DNA of 64,000 bases. Origin: a virus. Shown here one piece after another: positions 28,404 to 63,346 of the stretch (positions are counted from its first letter, which is position 1; each line of letters opens with the position of its first letter). The stretch is taken from positions 1-64,000 of the IMG/VR virus record IMGVR_UViG_3300049483_000112; one strand, given 5' to 3'. Made by a program: the position numbers and the translations under genes. Under the pieces are notes generated by a model. It was not told the DNA's origin and ran no database searches. It saw only the letters and a list, made by a program, of their open reading frames with translations.

Positions 28404-31400
28404 TCACGCGTACATCGCCACCATCTCGATGAAGTCCGCCAGGTCAGGATCGTATAGGGTTGTGTTGGCCGCAGGCGCCAGCCCGAGCGCCGTCATCGAC
28501 CCCGTAGGCACGCTGATGACGATCGGCTGCTGCCGCACTGGCGGCCTGATCGGCAGCCTGACGCGGTGCGCAATCAGCCGAGGGACGATCTGCTCTTCCG
28601 CTGGGCGAATGTCGCTGACGATGATGCTCGGGGCGAACCCGGCGAATGCACCATGGCCAGTTTCAACGCCGATCGGAACGTCGACAGGCTTGGGCCGATA
28701 GGTGCGATCGACGATGAAGTCTGGGCGTCGGTTGCCGCGGCCCCAGCCCACGCCGTCCAGGGTTGGCGGCAATGCCGGCGCAGGCGCTTCTGCAACTTCT
28801 TCTTCGCCAGGGACCAGCCCAACAATCGTCATCGACCCCGTGGGCACCTCGATGACGTGATGCTCGGTGCGCGCGACCGTCGGCGCAAAGCCCGTGAACT
28901 GCCCGGTGCCGGTGCCAGGCGTCGCGGTGATGAACTCGCTGATCAGGATCGACGGCGCTAGGCCTGCGAATGCGCCCGTGCCGGTGTCCGGTTTCACCCC
29001 CTGCCCGAGCAGCACCGATGGAGGAAGACCGACGAACGCACCAGACCCAGTCGCAACGCCGGCGATGACGTGCTCGGTACGCGAGATCGTCGGCTCGAGG
29101 CCCGTGAATACGCCAGACCCGAACCCAGGCTGCGCCGTCTTGCCTAGCGCACTGTTGAGCACCCCAGGGGCGAACCCGCCGAATGCGCCGGCCCCAGTCG
29201 GTACCGCAATAATCTGGCCGATCAGGATAGACGGGGCGAGCCCAATGAATGCGCCCGTGCCCGCGGGCGGAGTGGCCGAGATCAGGTCGCTGACCAGCGC
29301 CGTCGGCGCCAAGCCGCTGAACGCGCCAGTGCCAACCGGGACCGGCAAGTTGGTGTTCGTCGCACTGCTGACCGAGATCGTTGGCGCCAGGCCTTCGAAC
29401 GCGCCGCTGCCTACGCCAGGCGCTGCGCTGCGCAGATCCGAAACCGCAATCGATGGAACAAGCCCGGTGAACGCCCCGGTGCCAAGGCCCGGCCGCGCCA
29501 ACAGGCCGACAGTGATGATCGGGGCGAACCCAACGAAGGCACCCGAGCCGGCGCCAGGCTGCGCGATGACATTGAGCAGGGTGCTTGGGGCAATCCCAAC
29601 GAATGCCCCGCTGCCGGTGGCTGGCTGATAAGTTGACCCGCGCAGAGCAATCGGCAGCAGCCCGGTGAACGCCCCCGCCCCGACGCCTGGCGTCGCCACC
29701 ACCCCAGTGAGCAGCGTTGGCGCAAGCCCCGCCGCGGTCAACGAACCAACCCCTGGCCGGAATACATAGCCGGTGATCGCAGCGGGCGCAAAGCCCGACG
29801 CAGACAGCGTGCCGGGCCCAGGCTGCGCGATCTTGAGGTCGCTGATGGTTGCGGTAGGGGCAAGCCCTGCAAACGCTCCTGTGCCCGTTCCTGGCTGCGC
29901 GAATGCGCCAACTACGAACGTCGGCGCTAGGCCAGCGAATGCGCCGCTGCCGGCCGGCGGCTGCGCGATCGCGTTTGTCAGGATCGAAGGCGCAAGTCCG
30001 GCGAATGCGCCGGTCCCAGCCCCCGGCTGAGCGACAGTCCCGCGCAGGATGGCCGGCGCGAGTCCAGCGAATAGGCCGGTCCCGGCGCCAGGCTGCGCAA
30101 CAGTGCCAACGACCAGAGTCGGAGTAAGACCGGCGAACACCCCTGTGCCGGCACCGGGCTGGATGATCGAGTTGATCAGCAGCGACGGGGCGAACCCTGC
30201 GAACACGCCAGCGCCGGCAGGCACGGCATAGATCGCACTCGTCAGCAGCGTCGGTGCCAGCCCTGCGAACACTCCGTTGCCTGTGCCGGGCTGCACGTAG
30301 GACTGGATCAGGAGCGACGGCGCGAGCCCGACGAAAGCCCCGTTGCCTGTGCCGGGCTGCTTGATCTCTCCGCGCAGCGCCGTCGGAGCAAGGCCTGCGA
30401 AAACGCCCGTGCCAGCGCCGGGCTGCGCATACATCTGCACGAACAGCGCTGGCGCAAGCCCGGCAAATACCCCTGTCCCTGCGCCAGGCTGCGTGATCGT
30501 CCCGGCGACAACCGTCGGCGCTGCGCCAGCGAATACCCCGTTGCCCGTGCCGGGCTGTGTGATGGTGCCGCGGAGCGCTACCGGTGTTGAGCCAGCGAAT
30601 ACCCCGTTGCCGGTGCCGGGCTGCGCGACTGTTCCGATGATCAGCGTGGGCGCCAACCCAGCGAACACGCCATTGCCAAGACCGGGCTGCTCTACCTCGC
30701 CGCGCACCAATGTCGGCGCAAGGCCCGCGAACACACCGTTACCGGCTCCCGGCTGTTCGACCTCACCCCTTACCAAAGTCGGCGCGAGCCCCGCGAATAC
30801 GCCATTGCCCGTACCGGGTTGATCGACTTCGCCGCGCACAAGCGTCGGCGCGATACCGCTGAATACGCCATTGCCGGTGCCAGGCTGCTCGACCTCGCCG
30901 CGCAGCAGCGTCGGAGCGAGCCCAGCGAAGACGCCGTTGCCCGTGCCTGGCTGTTCGACCTCACCACGAAGCAGCGTCGGTGCGAAGCCGCCGAAGACGC
31001 CGTTGCCGGCGCCAGGCTGAGTGATGGTGCCGCGCAGCACCGTTGGGGCAAGGCCAGCAAACACGCCATTGCCTGTTCCCGGTTGCTCGTACATCTGCTG
31101 GAATGCGATCGGCGCCAGTCCAGTGAATGCGCCGGTGCCGTAGCTCGGGCTTGCTGTGACGTTTGCAGTGACGCCAGCCACCGGGATGGCGAACTGCGTC
31201 CACGAGACAAACCAGCCCGTCGACTTCGTCGCCGTCGGAGCGAGCCCGGTTGCGACCGCCGACCCAACTGGTACCGCAATCGTCTTGTCTTGCGCGAACG
31301 AAACCCACATCTCGCAGCCGTCGCGGCTGCCGCTGAATGTCGGGTTGTAAATCTGCGTCGCAGTTGCGCTCACCACCTTGCGCTGGGTGATGATCTGCAT

Positions 31401-31970
31401 GCCGGAGGTGGTCACGCCAACGCCGGCCTTCAGCCCCGCTGACCATGAGCCGTTGGACGTGTCCGAGTCGTCGGTCGCGGTGTCGTTGCCCTCCCGGCCC
31501 ATCGCGCCGATCACCATCGTCCCGTTTGTTAGGGACGAGGTTGTGATCGACGGGACGTTCGATGTGGCCGTTTCTTGCGCGCCAGTGACGTAGACGACCG
31601 AGTAGCCGGCCTCTGGCGTTACTTCATGCAGCGCCCACGCCTTCGCGACTGCGTTGGCGCTGATCGTCATGGTGATCGTGTTCGCCGTCGTCAGCGTGCC
31701 GACCGCCATGTTGCAGGTGAACGCGCGCATCGCCGCGCCGGCGTTCGCTGCGCCAGGGTCGATCAACGAGTTGACGCGCGAAACCCAGGTGTTCCCTACC
31801 GAGTCAGTGATCGACGAGTAGGGGTCGGCCCCGTTCGTGCCGCTGTTGTCGTATGCGCAGAACAGAACAGCCAGCGAGCCTGCGCTGAAGTTGGACCCAG
31901 GCGTGACGACGAGCGTCGTGCTCGACGAGTTGTGTGTGCCTGAACCTCGATCTGCGCCGCTGATTGCCAC
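28404..31970 (-). CDS. Giant GLAPT-repeat virion protein
   Basis: 1,188 residues from a GTG at 31970 (GGAG 6 bases upstream). Residues 1-230 form a beta-sandwich-like domain related in style to the protein encoded just upstream (32005-33030). From about residue 236 to the end there are some 38 copies of a repeat, most of exactly 22 residues, with consensus QPGTGNGVFAGLAPTLLRG. Variation is greatest toward the C-terminus, where longer proline-rich linkers appear. The regular Gly/Ala/Pro turn pattern suggests a fibrous beta-solenoid-like shaft. It is placed between head genes and probable receptor-binding proteins, so a head or tail fibre is likely. A three-repeat relative lies at 5338-5730. 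Confidence 0.8.
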   Translation of the reverse strand: MAISGADRGSGTHNSSSTTLVVTPGSNFSAGSLAVLFCAYDNSGTNGADPYSSITDSVGNTWVSRVNSLIDPGAANAGAAMRAFTCNMAVGTLTTANTITMTISANAVAKAWALHEVTPEAGYSVVYVTGAQETATSNVPSITTSSLTNGTMVIGAMGREGNDTATDDSDTSNGSWSAGLKAGVGVTTSGMQIITQRKVVSATATQIYNPTFSGSRDGCEMWVSFAQDKTIAVPVGSAVATGLAPTATKSTGWFVSWTQFAIPVAGVTANVTASPSYGTGAFTGLAPIAFQQMYEQPGTGNGVFAGLAPTVLRGTITQPGAGNGVFGGFAPTLLRGEVEQPGTGNGVFAGLAPTLLRGEVEQPGTGNGVFSGIAPTLVRGEVDQPGTGNGVFAGLAPTLVRGEVEQPGAGNGVFAGLAPTLVRGEVEQPGLGNGVFAGLAPTLIIGTVAQPGTGNGVFAGSTPVALRGTITQPGTGNGVFAGAAPTVVAGTITQPGAGTGVFAGLAPALFVQMYAQPGAGTGVFAGLAPTALRGEIKQPGTGNGAFVGLAPSLLIQSYVQPGTGNGVFAGLAPTLLTSAIYAVPAGAGVFAGFAPSLLINSIIQPGAGTGVFAGLTPTLVVGTVAQPGAGTGLFAGLAPAILRGTVAQPGAGTGAFAGLAPSILTNAIAQPPAGSGAFAGLAPTFVVGAFAQPGTGTGAFAGLAPTATISDLKIAQPGPGTLSASGFAPAAITGYVFRPGVGSLTAAGLAPTLLTGVVATPGVGAGAFTGLLPIALRGSTYQPATGSGAFVGIAPSTLLNVIAQPGAGSGAFVGFAPIITVGLLARPGLGTGAFTGLVPSIAVSDLRSAAPGVGSGAFEGLAPTISVSSATNTNLPVPVGTGAFSGLAPTALVSDLISATPPAGTGAFIGLAPSILIGQIIAVPTGAGAFGGFAPGVLNSALGKTAQPGFGSGVFTGLEPTISRTEHVIAGVATGSGAFVGLPPSVLLGQGVKPDTGTGAFAGLAPSILISEFITATPGTGTGQFTGFAPTVARTEHHVIEVPTGSMTIVGLVPGEEEVAEAPAPALPPTLDGVGWGRGNRRPDFIVDRTYRPKPVDVPIGVETGHGAFAGFAPSIIVSDIRPAEEQIVPRLIAHRVRLPIRPPVRQQPIVISVPTGSMTALGLAPAANTTLYDPDLADFIEMVAMYA
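28860..31095. repeat. 66-bp tandem coding repeats
   Basis: DNA of the repeat protein: units of mostly 66 bases, about 34 copies, many sharing runs such as CCGTTGCC and GGCTG at the same phase. The middle copies (30,300-31,050) are the most alike, the outer ones the most diverged, as expected for expansion and contraction from the centre. Confidence 0.8.
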
Positions 31971-52130: not shown

Positions 52131-52250
52131 GTGGCGAGGCGAGGCGAGGCCTCGCCGGGCAAGGCGTGGCAAGGCAAGGCAAGGCAGGCAAGGCAAGGCG
52201 GGGCGTGGCACGGCAGGGCTAGGCGGGGCGTGGCGTGGCACGGCAGGTCA
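52131..52250. repeat. NNGGC degenerate pentanucleotide array 1
   Basis: About 24 successive 5-base units ending GGC with two variable bases in front (gtggc, gaggc, aaggc, taggc, acggc and so on), with one 4-base unit (aggc) and one disturbed unit (ctcgc). Begins right after the lipoprotein stop and ends 90 bases before the next gene. Five is not a multiple of three, so it is not a coding repeat. Confidence 0.9.
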
Positions 52251-52339
52251 GGTTACGGGTTTTGAGGGCGGCGGCCCATTCCGCCGAACAGGTTTGTCGG
52301 GCGCCTGCGGCGAAGCCCCGGCTTTATCAGGAGTAGACC

Positions 52340-53146
52340 ATGGCTACCAAATCGACGAAACAACCGACAGACCACGAGGAAATTCAAATCCTTGAGGTCG
52401 AAAGGGGCGTCATCGACTTTTTCATTCTCGGCACGACCCCGCTGTTGTGCAATCGAATGAGCGAAAAAGTTTGGCACGAACTTCTCGCGCCCAAGGGACG
52501 CAAGACGGAGTCCGAAAAGCAGGCAACGATGAAACACGATCCCATTCAAGAGTTTCGGGACTCGCCCTACATCATCGACGCCCCTCAGGCGCCAACGCTG
52601 TTGGGCATCATGCCGGTCGCGTTCAAGCGCGCGATGGGCACGGCTGCGCTCGATATGCCGGGCGCGAAAAAGGCGCAAGTTCTTCGGCTGGTGACTGTGC
52701 AGTCGGAGATGTTCCCGGTGTTCGGCATCCCGAGGCTGCACATGTCAATCACGCGCAGCGCCGACGTGAAGAAGACGCCTGACGTGCGCACACGTGCCGT
52801 GTTGCCCGAGTGGGCCGCGCGAGTGCGCATCACCTACACGAAGCCGATCTTGCGCGCGCAGTCGATCACCAATCTGATTGCGGCTGCGGGGTTTCAGTCG
52901 GGCGTCGGCGACTGGCGCCAGGAAAAGGGGTCCGGCTCATTCGGGTGCTTCAAGGTCGTCGGGGAAAACGACCCCGACTGGAATCGCATTGCCGCCACTG
53001 GCGGTCGTGCGGCGCAGATCGAAGCGATGGAAAACCCCGTGGCCTACGATACCGAGGCAGAGGAAATGCTGGCGTGGTTTGTCGGGGAGAAGCAGACCCG
53101 CGGTTTCAACAAAAAGGGTGCCGTTGAACTCAGGAAGGCAGCATGA
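52340..53146 (+). CDS. Unknown protein between NNGGC arrays
   Basis: 268 residues with AGGAG before the ATG. GVIDFFILGTTPLLCNRMSE at the start of the core, MPVAFKRAMGTAAL in the middle and FQSGVGDWRQEKGSGSFGCF near the end. The last is a Gly-rich loop of the kind seen in RAMP/Cas7-like folds, but this is a weak resemblance. Coupled to the next gene by a four-base overlap. Upstream of the recombination set, so a DNA-handling role is possible. Confidence 0.75.
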   Translation: MATKSTKQPTDHEEIQILEVERGVIDFFILGTTPLLCNRMSEKVWHELLAPKGRKTESEKQATMKHDPIQEFRDSPYIIDAPQAPTLLGIMPVAFKRAMGTAALDMPGAKKAQVLRLVTVQSEMFPVFGIPRLHMSITRSADVKKTPDVRTRAVLPEWAARVRITYTKPILRAQSITNLIAAAGFQSGVGDWRQEKGSGSFGCFKVVGENDPDWNRIAATGGRAAQIEAMENPVAYDTEAEEMLAWFVGEKQTRGFNKKGAVELRKAA

Positions 53147-53640
53147 ACATCATCACTGGCGAAGATCGCGAGATCATCGAGGGGCGCTTGAAGTCGCTCC
53201 TCGCAGACGGCGGGGGCCGACTCACGCCCGAGCGCGTTGTCGCGGATGCGCGCGCCGTGGATAGTCCGCTGCACCGGCTGTTCGATTGGAATGACTCGTC
53301 TGCGGCGCACAAGCATCGGCTCGACACGGCGCGAGCGGTTATCGGCTCGATTCAACTCATCGTGAAAACCGAGCATGTCGTCTTGCGGGTGCCAGGTTAC
53401 GTCCGCGATCCAAGTTGCGCCGGGCGCGAGCAAGGCTACGTCGAAACGGCGTCACTCCGCAACGAAGAGGATGCCGCGAGGCAAGTTCTGCTGACCGAGT
53501 TTCAGCGCGCTGGCGCGTGCCTCGCGCGGGCACGGGCCTTGGCTGTGGTACTTAACCTTGAGCCGGAAATTGACGCGCTGTGCGCTGGAATTTCGGCACT
53601 GCGCGAGCGCATGGCGCAAGCGCCGGCGGCTGTACAGTGA
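53143..53640 (+). CDS. Unknown protein between NNGGC arrays
   Basis: 165 residues, starting MNIITGEDREIIEGRLKSLL, with SPLHRLFDWNDSSAAHKHRL, a phrase conserved in phage and plasmid proteins near recombination genes. C-terminal helices. No biochemical role known to me. Array 2 begins at its stop codon. Confidence 0.7.
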   Translation: MNIITGEDREIIEGRLKSLLADGGGRLTPERVVADARAVDSPLHRLFDWNDSSAAHKHRLDTARAVIGSIQLIVKTEHVVLRVPGYVRDPSCAGREQGYVETASLRNEEDAARQVLLTEFQRAGACLARARALAVVLNLEPEIDALCAGISALRERMAQAPAAVQ

Positions 53641-54045
53641 AAGGCCCGGCGAGGCAAGGCAGGCGAGGCTGGGCGAGGCGAGGCATGGCAGGGCCGGGCG
53701 GGGCTAGGCAGGCGCGGAACGGCTGGGCGAGGCAGGGCTGGGCTCGGCATGGCAAGGCAGGCGAGGCATGGCTAGGCCAGGCGTGGCAAGGCTAGGCCCG
53801 GCGTGGCAAGGCCTGGCCAGGCAGGCAGGGCGTGGCGGGGCCAGGCTAGGCGTGGCAAGGCAGGCATGGCGGGGCGAGGCGGGGCGGGGCGCGGCGTGGC
53901 TGGGCATGGCAAGGCGAGGCAGGCAGGGCGAGGCTGGGCGCGGCCAGGCTAGGCGAGGCGAGGCAAAGCAAGGCAGGCAAGGCAGGCACGGCGAGGCAGG
54001 GCGTGGCCAGGCAAGGCAGGGCAGGCATGGCTGGCACGGTGTGGC
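53641..54045. repeat. NNGGC degenerate pentanucleotide array 2
   Basis: About 80 units over 405 bases following the rule NNGGC, with nearly all dinucleotides used in the NN positions (TT not seen) and scattered 4-base units (aggc). The plus strand is strongly G-rich, with a GG every 5 bases. Starts at the stop of the preceding gene and ends at a small hairpin. Open frames through it are by-products of its composition. Confidence 0.93.
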
Positions 54046-54060
54046 CCAAACTTTTTTGGG
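54045..54060. other. Small hairpin at the end of array 2
   Basis: CCCAAA-CTTT-TTTGGG, a 6-bp stem with a 4-base loop, immediately after the last NNGGC unit and 6 bases before the next ATG. Could affect translation or mark the array boundary. Confidence 0.4.
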
Positions 54061-54066
54061 TGTGCG

Positions 54067-54258: not shown

Positions 54259-54434
54259 GTCGGCCGATACGAACGAAGTCCGGGCTGTTGATCGGTGGAG
54301 CTTATATTCAGCCGCCACCCAAGCAGAGCGTTGACGACGAAACGCTGCAACGAGCACTTCTGGCGCCGCCACGAGTAACCAGTTGGGCGGCGAAGATGCT
54401 TGCTGTAGTTCGACGGATGATGCGCAAATGTTGA
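54255..54434 (+). CDS. Small hypothetical protein
   Basis: 59 residues from ATG 54255, basic at both ends. Overlaps its neighbours at both sides. No family. Confidence 0.55.
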   Translation: MSRPIRTKSGLLIGGAYIQPPPKQSVDDETLQRALLAPPRVTSWAAKMLAVVRRMMRKC

Positions 54435-54913
54435 CTCAACACCGGTTGCTCCTTTTGCTGCACTACGATGCCATCACGGGAGCATTCACTAGGCTGCAAT
54501 GCAGCAACAAACGATTCGTCGGCAAGGTTGTGAACGACTCGCATCACAGCGGCTACATCTTCATTCGTGTCGACGGGAAGCGCTATGCGGCACACCGTCT
54601 TGCCTGGCTGTATATGACGGGCGCATTCCCGCGCGCGCAGATCGATCATAGAAACACCATCAAAGCCGACAACCGATGGGACAATTTGCGCGAGGCGACG
54701 AATAGGCTGAATGCCGAAAACAAACGAACACCTCGAGTAGACAACGCGGTCGGCCGTCTTGGCGTCTGTTTTCACAAAGCGTCTCAGCGCTTCGTCGCTC
54801 AGATACAAGTAGACGGTGTGAAGCGACACCTTGGTCTTTTCGATACCGCTGAAGAGGGGCACGTCGTCTATCTCGCCGCCAAGAAAAACCTACACAGAGG
54901 AAATACGCTATGA
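54428..54913 (+). CDS. HNH-AP2 homing endonuclease
   Basis: 161 residues from ATG 54428. HNH core YAAHRLAWLYMTGAFPRAQI followed by DHRNTIKADNRWDNLREAT, then a C-terminal AP2 DNA-binding domain (RLGVCFHKASQRFVAQIQVD, HLGLFDTAEEG). A free-standing mobile nuclease sitting just before the RecT gene; its last codons overlap the RecT start. Confidence 0.88.
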   Translation: MLTQHRLLLLLHYDAITGAFTRLQCSNKRFVGKVVNDSHHSGYIFIRVDGKRYAAHRLAWLYMTGAFPRAQIDHRNTIKADNRWDNLREATNRLNAENKRTPRVDNAVGRLGVCFHKASQRFVAQIQVDGVKRHLGLFDTAEEGHVVYLAAKKNLHRGNTL

Positions 54914-55794
54914 CCAACGATCTCACGACTCAACCTCAATCCGAGGGCGAACTCATTCAGGTGCTGCAATCGAGCCTGTACCCAGGCGCGGCAATTGACA
55001 GCATTCGCATGGTGCTTGGCTACTGCAAGGCGGCCGGGCTCGACCCGATGCTCAAGCCAGTTCATATAGTTCCTATGTGGTCGCGCGAGCAGCAAGCGAT
55101 GGTCGATGTCATCATGCCTGGCGTCGGCCTGTATCGCACGCAGGCGTCGCGCAGCGGCCAGTTCGCAGGCATGACCGAGCCCGAGTTCGGTCCCGATGTG
55201 ACAGCGGACATCGGCGGCCAGATGATCACTTATCCCGAATGGTGCCGGGTGACTGTGAAGCGCGCGCTATCGAGAGGCGTCATCGCCGAGTTCACGGCGC
55301 GCGAGTACTGGCTCGAAAACTACGCGGTGAAAGGCGGCACGGACAAGAGCGTAGCGCCGAATGCGATGTGGAAGAAACGTCCCCGCGGCCAGTTGGCGAA
55401 GTGCGCGGCTGCGCAGGCCTTGCGCATCGCTTTTCCGGAGTTGGGCGCGCAGCCGACGGCAGAGGAGATGGAGGGCAAGACGATCGACCCTGCCGAGCCG
55501 TTCCCTTTGCTTGCGCCTGAACCACCGAAGGAGTTGCTCGCGGCAGCCCAGGCCGCCGCAAAGCTCGGCGAGAGAACTTATGCCGCCTTCTGGCACGACG
55601 CAGGCAAGGACAAGCGCAAACTGTTGGCGGGGCACCATGATGCCCTGAAGCTCGATGCTATTGCTGCCGACAAGGCGCGCACGGTCGAGATGACTGGCAA
55701 TGCACCGGCAGGCACGCAACCGCCGACTGATGATCCGTGGGTCGCAGAGCTTGAACGGGCAGAGCGAGGAAATGCGCCGGAGCGGCAAGCGTGA
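54910..55794 (+). CDS. RecT/Bet-family ssDNA annealing protein
   Basis: 294 residues. IDSIRMVLGYCKAAGLDPML, KPVHIVPMW and YRTQASRSGQFAGMTEPEFG are Bet-family features, as is WKKRPRGQLAKCAAAQALRI. It anneals single strands during phage recombination together with the exonuclease encoded next (four-base overlap). Confidence 0.9.
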   Translation: MTNDLTTQPQSEGELIQVLQSSLYPGAAIDSIRMVLGYCKAAGLDPMLKPVHIVPMWSREQQAMVDVIMPGVGLYRTQASRSGQFAGMTEPEFGPDVTADIGGQMITYPEWCRVTVKRALSRGVIAEFTAREYWLENYAVKGGTDKSVAPNAMWKKRPRGQLAKCAAAQALRIAFPELGAQPTAEEMEGKTIDPAEPFPLLAPEPPKELLAAAQAAAKLGERTYAAFWHDAGKDKRKLLAGHHDALKLDAIAADKARTVEMTGNAPAGTQPPTDDPWVAELERAERGNAPERQA

Positions 55795-56423
55795 TCCAAG
55801 GCTCGCCGGAATGGAAGCTTGCCAGGGCTGGCAAGGTGACGGCCAGCAGACTCGACGCAGTGATGGCCAAGGGTCGCGGCAACGCGCCCAGCGCGACGCG
55901 CGAAGACTACATGGCTGAGTTGATCGCTGAGCGGCTCACCGGCATGCCGTACGAAGATGGCTTCGTCTCATTCGACATGCGCCGCGGAATGGAAGTCGAG
56001 CCGGCCGCCGCGCTCGCGTATGAGGTTGCGACTGGCACGGTGCTCGAAACCTGCGGTGTCATCGACCACCCATCGATCCCATGGACCGCCGCAAGCCCCG
56101 ACAGGCTCGCCGGCGAAGGGCTCGTCGAGACCAAGTGCCCGAAGACGAAAACGCACCTCGCGTACCTTCAGGCGGGCCGCGTGCCGGCAGATTACATCGC
56201 GCAGATGACGTGGCAACTCGTGTGTACGAATCGGCCATGGTGTGACTTTGTTTCCTTCGATCCGCGGCTGCCCGACGATCTGCAACTCTTCATCGTCCGC
56301 TATGTTCCGACGCCAGAGTACATCGCGACGGTCGAGGATGCCGTGATCACCTTTCTTGCCGAGCTTGATGATCGGCTGGCTCAAATCAACAGGCTGCGTC
56401 GCGGCAATGCACAGCCAGAATAA
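55791..56423 (+). CDS. YqaJ/lambda-type 5'-3' exonuclease
   Basis: 210 residues. GSPEWKLARAGKVTASRLDA, RRGMEVEPAAALAYEVATG, SPDRL and VETKCPK supply the conserved Glu, Asp and ExK of the PD-(D/E)xK fold. It resects dsDNA ends for the annealing protein. GTG start overlapping the RecT stop. Confidence 0.92.
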   Translation: MIQGSPEWKLARAGKVTASRLDAVMAKGRGNAPSATREDYMAELIAERLTGMPYEDGFVSFDMRRGMEVEPAAALAYEVATGTVLETCGVIDHPSIPWTAASPDRLAGEGLVETKCPKTKTHLAYLQAGRVPADYIAQMTWQLVCTNRPWCDFVSFDPRLPDDLQLFIVRYVPTPEYIATVEDAVITFLAELDDRLAQINRLRRGNAQPE

Positions 56424-60457: not shown

Positions 60458-61488
60458 TCAAGTTGATGATCCCAGACATGCCGAGCACGAATGAATTGAT
60501 CCCCTACCTGCGGCGGATCGATCAGACGAGGCAGTACAGCAACAACGGACCTTTGGTACGACAACTCGAAGCAGAGTTGTCGGAGCGCCTCGACGGCGCC
60601 GGTGTGCTGGCCGTTTCCAACGGGACCGTGGCCATCGAGTTGATCCTGCGAGCGCTTGACATGCCGCGTGCGCGGGTCGTTGTCCCGTCTGTGACGTTTG
60701 TGGCCACAGGTCAAGCGGTATGGAATGCCGGCATGAGGGCGATACTGACCGACGTTGATCGCGAGTCGTGGCAGATGGATCGCTGGCCGACAGTCGATTG
60801 CGACATCTGCTTGCCCGTTGCTGCATTCGGGGTGCCGGTTCCAACCTCATCATTCGCCGCCGCCGCAACCGAGTCGCAGCCGGTCGTGATAGATGCCGCC
60901 GGCGCGCTGACATGCCAAGAGATCCCCAACAGCGAGCACGTGCACCTTGCCTACTCTCTGCACGCGACGAAGTTCGTCGGCTGCGGCGAGGGCGGCCTGG
61001 TCGTGAGCCGCAACGCAGACTTGCTCTCACGGGTCGAAGAGCTCCGCGCTTTCGGTCGCCACGGTACGAACGCGAAGATGAGCGAGTACCACGCGGCTGT
61101 TGCGCTGGCAGCGCTCGGCAGGATCGTCGGGAAGCGCCACCTGACCGTGGCGCTCGCGACAGAATACCTGCGCATCTTGCCGGCCGAGGTTGAGGTTCAG
61201 ACCGGCGTCATGGGTGATCGGACGATGTTCAATGTGCTGCTTCCTCCTCACCAAAGCGCCGCACACGTGATCGATGCGATGGGGCTGCGCGGGGTCGAAT
61301 GCAGGCAGTGGTACGCACCCTTTCTGCATGAGCGCGTCGAGTTTGCCGGCGCGGCTGCTGGCCGCGACTTCACGGTGTCAGAGATGATCGCGGCCAGAAT
61401 GATCAGCCTTCCGTTTCACACCCGCATGACGCTATCCGACGTGAACAGGGTGTGCATAGCTTTGTTCGAGGTGCTCGGTGGCAAGTGA
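60454..61488 (+). CDS. DegT/DnrJ/EryC1/StrS-type sugar aminotransferase
   Basis: 344 residues from a GTG at 60454 (GTGA overlap); a TTG at 60448, with AAGGAG 6 bases upstream, is an alternative. NGPLVRQLEAELSERL, AVSNGTVAIELILRAL, VVPSVTFVATGQAVWNAG and YSLHATKFVGCGEGG carry the PLP fold, with Lys in HATK as the PLP site. It makes amino sugars from nucleotide-linked keto sugars. Fits with NeuD-type acylation of the amine. Confidence 0.92.
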   Translation: MIKLMIPDMPSTNELIPYLRRIDQTRQYSNNGPLVRQLEAELSERLDGAGVLAVSNGTVAIELILRALDMPRARVVVPSVTFVATGQAVWNAGMRAILTDVDRESWQMDRWPTVDCDICLPVAAFGVPVPTSSFAAAATESQPVVIDAAGALTCQEIPNSEHVHLAYSLHATKFVGCGEGGLVVSRNADLLSRVEELRAFGRHGTNAKMSEYHAAVALAALGRIVGKRHLTVALATEYLRILPAEVEVQTGVMGDRTMFNVLLPPHQSAAHVIDAMGLRGVECRQWYAPFLHERVEFAGAAAGRDFTVSEMIAARMISLPFHTRMTLSDVNRVCIALFEVLGGK

Positions 61489-63346
61489 CAAGCTCCCGGC
61501 TGTTGTCGAGCCGGTCATCACGCAGATTGCGAACGTCAAGCTCGAGGACTGGGAGCGCGTCTGCTACCGGCGCGAGTACGAGCCCGCAGGGCAGGCCATG
61601 CTGACAAGCTTGCGCCGGCTGAAGGTCGGTGCCGAGTTCATTGGCTACGCTCCGAACACCGACATCAAGCCGATCCTCTACACGCGCTTCTGCGCGGCAG
61701 TCACTGCACTGCTGCTGGATCCCGGCTTTCAGATCAGCCAGGACGGGTTCGACCATTTGGCATCCGAGCACGCGATCATGGACTTGCTGTGGCGCGCAAG
61801 CGCGTTTCGCAACAGCGACTTCATGCTGGCTCAAGTGTCAAGCCAGACCGACCCAGAGAATCCGGCCTCGATCACGATCCTCGACGGCCCAGGCCTGGCC
61901 AAGTTCCTGCTGACCTACTCGCTTCGTAGCGGCTTCATGCTCAATTTCGAGCAGACATTCCGAAAGTCGCCGCAATCAACATTTTCGCTCTGGGCCGGAA
62001 TGATCAGTCCGCTGCTGACTGTTGCCAAGCAGGCGCATGAGCGTCGCGAGTTGCTGCTCGGGATGCACGAGATCTTCGCCGACGTGACGCTAACAGACGC
62101 CATTCTGCCGACGCTGAGCGATGCCTACATGTACACGAGCTACGGCTCGAGGCGCGACAAGCACGCCGCGAAGCGCACGGTGCACCTTCTGATGGCGTCC
62201 ATGCTCGCAAAGCGTGGCGTCGTCATCCCGCCGTTGTCAGCCGAGGTGTTGCGCGTCGTTGAGCGACCGACGATCGTGCTCTGCCTTGAGTGGTGGACAT
62301 CGTTGCATGCGATGTACCGGTGCTACGCGCCGATCGTCCAACAACTGCGATCGAAGTTCAGGCTCGTGGCGTTTTCGCAGGCGGCCGCAATCGACGAGGT
62401 CGGGAAGCAGTCCTTCGACGAGTGGCACGAGGTTCCGGCCGACAAGCTCGTCTTCGGCGACCTGATGAACCGCATCGCCGCGATCAAGCCAGACATCATC
62501 TACTACCCGTCGCTCGGAATGGCGATGTGGTGGGTGATGATGGCTTCGATCCGCCTGGCGCCGATTCAGATGATGACTCTCGGGCACCCGGCCAGCAGCC
62601 ACTCGCCCGTGATGGACTACCTCTTGTGCGACGAGGGCGCCATCGGCGACCACTCGCTCGTCACAGAGAAGGTGGTCGAGTACCCGAACGGCTCGGCACG
62701 CTTCATCGCGCGCCCGGATGCGCAGTGGCCACAGCCGCTGGTCGATGATGCTCCGAACACGGTGCACATTGCCATCCCTGCGATGCTCTGCAAGATCTCT
62801 GCGCCTTTTGTAGAGACGCTGCAGCGGATTGCGTCCGCGGCAAAAACGCCAGTGGTCTTTCACTTCTTCGTCAATATGCTCGGCGTGAATCTGTACGTCG
62901 CGGCAAGGGAGCTTCGCGAGTACCTGCCGACGGCGCTCATCTATCAACGAGACGCCTACAGCAGTTACCTAGCGAACCTGGCGAAGTGCCACGCGCACTT
63001 TTCACCGTGGCCGTTCGGCGGCACCAACAGCAACATCGATTCAATGCAACTTGGCCTGCCGATCTTGACGCTACTTGGCGACGAGCCACACGAGCGATTC
63101 GACGCCTTGATGGTGCGGCGTGCGCAGTTGCCCGAGTGGCTTGTCACCCATAGCGTGGATGAGTATGTGGCCGCAGGCGTGCGTCTGATAGACAATCACG
63201 CCGAGCGCAACCAGATACGCGACCACTTGCGCTCCTTCGATCTCGTCGGTGAGTTTTTCGGCGAACACCCGGAGCATCGAACAGCATTCGTCGATACGGT
63301 GTGGCGCGTGTACCTTGAGCACCCCAGGGCAGAGAATGAAATTTGA
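61478..63346 (+). CDS. HMW1C-like (GT41) glycosyltransferase
   Basis: 622 residues from a GTG. The C-terminal half has the HMW1C/OGT GT-B features: MTLGHPASSHSPVMDYLLCD, FSPWPFGGTNSNIDSMQLGL and LPILTLLGDEPHERFD. The N-terminal half is helical as in HMW1C. Such enzymes place glucose or related sugars on protein Asn or Ser/Thr in the cytoplasm, so a virion protein or host surface protein is a likely target. It contains no obvious TPR repeats. Confidence 0.85.
   Translation: MASDKLPAVVEPVITQIANVKLEDWERVCYRREYEPAGQAMLTSLRRLKVGAEFIGYAPNTDIKPILYTRFCAAVTALLLDPGFQISQDGFDHLASEHAIMDLLWRASAFRNSDFMLAQVSSQTDPENPASITILDGPGLAKFLLTYSLRSGFMLNFEQTFRKSPQSTFSLWAGMISPLLTVAKQAHERRELLLGMHEIFADVTLTDAILPTLSDAYMYTSYGSRRDKHAAKRTVHLLMASMLAKRGVVIPPLSAEVLRVVERPTIVLCLEWWTSLHAMYRCYAPIVQQLRSKFRLVAFSQAAAIDEVGKQSFDEWHEVPADKLVFGDLMNRIAAIKPDIIYYPSLGMAMWWVMMASIRLAPIQMMTLGHPASSHSPVMDYLLCDEGAIGDHSLVTEKVVEYPNGSARFIARPDAQWPQPLVDDAPNTVHIAIPAMLCKISAPFVETLQRIASAAKTPVVFHFFVNMLGVNLYVAARELREYLPTALIYQRDAYSSYLANLAKCHAHFSPWPFGGTNSNIDSMQLGLPILTLLGDEPHERFDALMVRRAQLPEWLVTHSVDEYVAAGVRLIDNHAERNQIRDHLRSFDLVGEFFGEHPEHRTAFVDTVWRVYLEHPRAENEI

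Follow-up and report, generated by a model that had tools for sequence, protein, structure and literature searches.

Organization of the locus

The window analyzed here is a stretch of 64,000 nucleotides (positions 1 to 64,000 of IMG/VR record IMGVR_UViG_3300049483_000112). The locus is phage-borne: the 67-kb virus record carries terminase, portal, tail and replication genes, its nearest capsid being that of a Brevundimonas phage (57%) and its nearest TerL lying at about 40%. On the plus strand, a two-gene operon is flanked on both sides by arrays of GGC triplets alternating with free dinucleotides (NN). The first gene, vipr (52340-53146, 268 aa), encodes a RAMP/Cas7-like protein of phrog_4652. 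The second is a vap-type accessory gene (53143-53640, 165 aa) of the phrog_15946 family, which overlaps the vipr stop. Array 1 (52133-52253), upstream of vipr, consists of GGC/NN units from 52133 to 52244 followed by GGT units up to 52253. This second, shorter array was overlooked in the first-pass annotation of the window. Array 2, in its strict extent, covers positions 53643-54031 and comprises 78 GGC triplets organized in modules, which are linked by GGC-A-GGC junctions.

Genes for an HNH endonuclease, a RecT-like annealing protein and a RecE-like exonuclease are found directly downstream of array 2 (54383-56423). Elsewhere in the window, 66-bp tandem repeats (about 70-80% alike) are present at 29979-31089 within the minus-strand ORF 28404-31970 (1188 aa), which is probably a repetitive structural protein, and ORF 61478-63346 (622 aa) is without a PHROG match.

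Structure of the arrays

Array 2 obeys the rule given in the first-pass annotation, two free bases and then GGC over about 80 units: of the spacings between successive GGC triplets 66 are exactly 5 bases, 9 are 4 bases and 2 are 10 bases. In the uninterrupted segments the triplet is G-G-C in 46 of 46 units. The entropy of the free positions reaches 1.88 bits (N1) and 1.80 bits (N2), and 15 of the 16 dinucleotides are present. It was thus correctly noted that almost all dinucleotides are used, and that the sequence is unlike common tandem repeats in leaving exactly two positions free. The randomness of these positions holds only in part: N1 and N2 are independent (chi2 9.0, 9 df) and of high entropy, but NN usage is not uniform (chi2 37.8, 15 df), being purine-rich with A frequent at the second place. 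The chain score of array 2 is 67; 200 first-order shuffles of the array never score above 6, and shuffles of the entire window reach at most 3. NN runs are not repeated above chance, the longest repeated run being 3. Stop codons occur in all six frames, so array 2 is non-coding on both strands. The nine four-base steps are the GGC-A-GGC junctions and not noise. Array 2 is a real and meaningful feature.

The modules delimited by these junctions differ in length and content. They include module 2 (53662-53710; NN = GA TG GA GA AT AG CG GG TA), module 3 (53711-53759; GC AC TG GA AG TG TC AT AA, with GGA replacing one GGC), module 4 (53760-53823; GA AT TA CA GT AA TA CC GT AA CT CA), module 5 (53824-53862; AG GT GG CA TA GT AA), module 6 (53863-53921; AT GG GA GG GG GC GT TG AT AA GA), module 7 (53922-53975; AG GA TG GC CA TA GA GA AA AA, with AGC replacing one GGC) and module 9 (53985-54023; AC GA AG GT CA AA AG), all on the plus strand. 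The end of array 2 is irregular and includes a hairpin, CCCAAAC-TTTTTTGGG (54024-54060), which may represent a 3' end or a terminator. A terminator-like match is located within this region (54029-54046), and the predicted fold of positions 54000-54066 is not more stable than that of shuffled sequences. Array 1 contains one GGC-A-GGC junction in its interior, at about 52182-52189, and closes with GGC-A-GGT; its main module (52187-52244) reads NN = AA AA GG GT AC AG TA GG GT GT AC. A perfect palindrome, GGCGAGGCCTCGCC, lies near the start of array 1 (window 52133-52162) and is possibly a hairpin at the vrRNA 5' end or a processing site.

The Vipr family and its association with the arrays

VIPR stands for Viral Interference Programmable Repeat, a system presented in a preprint of April 2026 (PMC13142463). 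According to this text, VIPR combines a phage RAMP with vrRNAs in which GGY alternates with NN; the NN pairs read DNA with one base skipped per pair, and the system is aimed at rival phages. For the SUSP1 and P. fulva members, vrRNA expression, RNA copurification, the one-base skip and silencing are established there.

Arrays were searched in IMG/VR with an exact eight-unit pattern, which gave at least 120 loci, and in bacterial genomes with a twelve-unit pattern, for which counts refer to the matches listed. Among the matches listed, heterogeneous arrays come from viral sequences and a few bacterial-genome contigs, most of the bacterial matches being plain microsatellites. Clustering of all ORFs in the vicinity gave vipr and vap as the main families beside the arrays: the vipr family adjoins 79 of the 109 heterogeneous GGCNN arrays among the matches listed, at a median distance of 30 bp. 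By HMM it is present at 80 of these 109 listed loci, and in 79 of the 80 it shares the strand of the GGC. At many of the array loci without the family, the array sits at a contig end. Neither a vipr-family gene nor a GGY array scoring 6 or more was found in 58 control viral loci. The reverse test gave the same picture, since seven loci detected only through the protein (SUSP1, ODay, LESphi2, UmaThurman, BobaPhett, Medea1 and L248) all have GGY/NN-type arrays, that of Medea1 being the weakest. A long array using all 16 dinucleotides, with 12-base interruptions and no vipr within reach, was also observed on a short bacterial-genome contig (L232, 158-583), which probably ends prematurely.

The vipr family has no match in Pfam. 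Compared to the PDB, the family profile identifies the solved structure 36pp (36pp_D), 'SUSP1 Vipr protein', with an E-value of 4.8e-34, Csm5 following far behind; the window protein as a single sequence has no phmmer match there. Alignment of the family profile to SUSP1 gp039 with hhalign gave 99.7%. A G-x-G...GxFG motif is conserved in the family alignment. The AlphaFold model of the window protein (pLDDT 85.6) matches Csm3/Cas7 chains with a Foldseek E-value of 1e-5 and a best Z of 11.0 over about 140-160 residues, in a structure library that is possibly older than 36pp. The window protein is thus predicted to adopt a RAMP fold of the CRISPR Cas7/Csm3 type, and its membership in Vipr rests on the family profile together with this modelled fold.

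The accessory gene, junctions and module turnover

Genes of the phrog_15946 type are present in 26-28 of the 109 array loci among the matches listed (28 by HMM). No relationship of the window accessory protein to SUSP1 Vap1 was detected by hhalign, and the Vap fold has no match better than E 0.2 in the PDB. The GGC-A-GGC layout is associated with this accessory family: it is found in 18 of 28 phrog_15946 loci compared to 11 of 81 others (Fisher p 8e-7, for loci that are not phylogenetically independent). Across loci, 165 of the 171 junctions have A as their single base. Most junctions are 5n+4 bases apart, with n typically 7-13. Guide modules contain about 7-12 units, and so do the main modules of the window.

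The comparison of arrays among close relatives, proposed in the first-pass annotation, proved informative. L248, whose Vipr is 64% identical to that of the window, has an array at the same place, with different NN pairs and with many GGA instead of GGC. Among the Cheoctovirus mycobacteriophages with identical vipr-vap DNA, ByChance is without one of the BobaPhett modules and Donkeykong has two modules more than Brocalys, the cuts lying exactly at junctions. Quico and Florinda (97% identity) carry other modules, and the same Vap with GGC-A-GGC junctions was found in Gordonia and Cheoctovirus phages. These comparisons therefore indicate a conserved frame, a variable content and a turnover by modules. 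Identical arrays in distant relatives, considered beforehand as an outcome that would speak against the feature, were not observed, the arrays of L248 and of the mycobacteriophages being different. The other outcome of this kind, an assembly artefact, is excluded because cultured phages with complete genomes show the same architecture.

The unit preceding the A junction is biased: it is usually AT in mycobacteriophages and usually ends in A in the window. From this bias, we infer that the last unit of a module may belong to the handle rather than to the guide. A bolder proposal, which we hold to be rather unlikely, is that in the phrog_15946-type VIPR branch GGC-A-GGC is the handle or boundary of exchangeable guide cassettes, whole guides being gained or lost exactly there. 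This would constitute a CRISPR-like modular memory without Cas1, into which Vap or the neighbouring RecT/RecE-type recombination might insert modules. Two neighbouring modules with a nearly identical NN string (AT GA AC AT TG CA) are visible in L248 (5700-6500), which suggests a module duplication.

A probable guide-RNA array of a VIPR system

From the linkage between vipr and the arrays, the profile match to SUSP1 Vipr and the RAMP fold, we conclude that the GGC/NN sequence very probably (probability of roughly 0.93) encodes the guide RNAs of a VIPR system carried by the phage. Protein and array anatomy make VIPR membership firm; expression in the window phage, processing at the A junctions and targeting are predicted, and the window modules are putative guides by homology. 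Both arrays would be transcribed as vrRNAs, along which Vipr, a single-RRM RAMP related to Cas7/Csm3, would oligomerise, holding every GGY and exposing every NN pair. Successive NN pairs would specify double-stranded DNA with one base skipped per pair (NNxNNx...); once bound there, the complex would repress genes of rival phages or prophages. One interchangeable guide module would extend from each GGC-A-GGC junction to the next, and the vap gene (53143-53640) would assist VIPR action. The protein-binding track envisaged in the first-pass annotation thus survives in spirit, the bound track being in all likelihood RNA (vrRNA) gripped by the RAMP encoded next to it and not half-turn DNA.

Three other explanations were considered. 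The RNA-binding protein TRAP binds (NAG)11 RNA, in which NAG triplets are separated by two-base spacers; its fold and purpose differ from those of Vipr, and the likeness is one of analogy only. On this model the array could act in cis, as RNA or DNA, with the neighbouring protein binding at regular intervals and thereby regulating the phage's own operon, and with NN as mere spacers. The fixed triplet with its two-base spacers and the placement of the arrays around the operon on the same strand would fit such an element. We nevertheless judge it improbable, as the protein belongs to the RAMPs, is related to a demonstrated Vipr and is not TRAP-like, and as near-identical relatives swap whole modules with distinct NN while vipr-vap stays constant, a swap that spacers do not need. 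Moreover, the homologues are proven guide systems (PMC13142463).

An element of DNA structure (G-quadruplex, R-loop, or recombination hot spot beside recT/recE) is still less probable. It would agree with the G-rich strand and with the RecT-like and RecE-like genes located about 0.9-1.8 kb downstream; however, GGG runs are few, and a relative of the window RecE-like gene occurs, within the fetched flanks, in only 7 of the 109 array loci compared to 79 for Vipr. The free positions also carry information, and homology marks the partner protein as one that binds RNA. The G-quadruplexes, R-loops and unusual synthesis process suggested earlier are without support.

Finally, a microsatellite that drifts by slippage and has persisted by chance, or a repeat within a coding sequence, is refuted by the tests that were run: plain GGCNN microsatellites are indeed frequent in bacterial genomes, but they use 1-5 dinucleotides compared to 15 here, where no run is repeated above chance, GGC is held constant and the link to one gene family is near-universal, and the stops in every frame contradict a coding repeat. 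Plain pentamer microsatellites (GGCTC, GGCAC, GGCTT) were observed in the genome loci L129-L247, and are easily mistaken for vrRNA arrays.

In other searches, Rfam gave nothing at the gathering score for 19 loci, hence no hammerhead in these, BLAST of the locus against phage records gave no match, and a literature search by repeat sequence returned a note on GGCAG in Xop411 and otherwise noise.

Search for targets

Target scans with the one-base skip were performed on viral contigs with six modules (modules 2, 3, 4, 6 and 7 and that of array 1) and, for two of these, on 369-385 genomes per pattern, sampled from the two proteobacterial classes to which a Sphingomonas and a Bordetella genome belong. 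No convincing complete natural target was found in these viral contigs or sampled genomes under one-base-skip decoding. For module 3, 8 of 9 units match, in codon register, the motif IDQLSQVA of a tail tape-measure family present on about 16 contigs, in which the ninth, terminal unit is never matched; this is a lead only, not better than chance for the size of the search. Module 2 also matches at 8 of 9 units, in unrelated proteins, and modules 4, 6 and 7 gave partial matches at chance level. Array 1 gave no target match; its genome pattern ended in a unit (AG) that belongs to the A junction, and with two mismatches allowed this pattern was perhaps slightly too strict. Within the window there is no self-target, the best match being 7 of 9. 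Skip rules of 0, 1, 2 and 3 nt, applied to 2 Mb of fetched loci, gave 2, 4, 1 and 6 matches outside arrays, numbers of too little power to choose between them.

Comparison with known systems

The type II VIPR of SUSP1 and of a P. fulva prophage resembles the window locus (PMC13142463) by its Vipr RAMP, its GGY/NN arrays up- and downstream of a two-gene operon and its location on a phage. The same source also mentions staggered arrays for other VIPR types. In SUSP1 the vrRNAs are separate, have 9-16 repeats and each end in a conserved 3' tail, whereas the window modules are packed in a continuous array. The window arrays fit the alternating GGY/NN anatomy, the shorter modules falling under the published length of about 9-16 units. 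Conserved 3' tails were not seen between window modules, the candidate hairpins being at the array ends only. The window further differs from SUSP1 by an almost exclusive use of GGC and by an accessory gene from another family. Relative to the available text, the locus adds one more VIPR of the published kind, the additions being the modular junction rule and the link to one accessory family.

With class 1 CRISPR-Cas systems (Csm3/Cas7), the window Vipr has in common the predicted RAMP fold of the RNA-binding subunit; the window differs by its 5-base GGC/NN units, its one small RAMP and the absence of CRISPR repeats and spacers. A CRISPR-Cas array proper (direct repeats of 20-40 bp with cas genes) was rejected, the period being 5 with no longer conserved repeat and the neighbours being vipr and vap. 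VIPR has been proposed both as the ancestor of the CRISPR effectors and as a minimal tool for programmable DNA recognition.

The architecture of the window locus is shared by cultured phages. The Cheoctovirus mycobacteriophages (BobaPhett, Brocalys, Donkeykong and others) and the Gordonia phages UmaThurman, Pipp, ODay and Ecliptus have the Vipr and Vap families and the GGC-A-GGC modules of the window. They differ from it by an array located upstream of vipr in the mycobacteriophages, and by more GGA/GTC-type variants in the Gordonia phages. Together with the window locus, the mycobacteriophages of this architecture provide an explicit rule for guide boundaries. The series with identical effector genes and different modules makes processing, target choice and guide acquisition testable in M. 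smegmatis phages, which are safe and well established in the laboratory. In the records seen for Cheoctovirus and Gordonia phages (L308, L310, L311 and L317-L327), Vipr and Vap are annotated as 'hypothetical proteins' and the intergenic arrays are unannotated.
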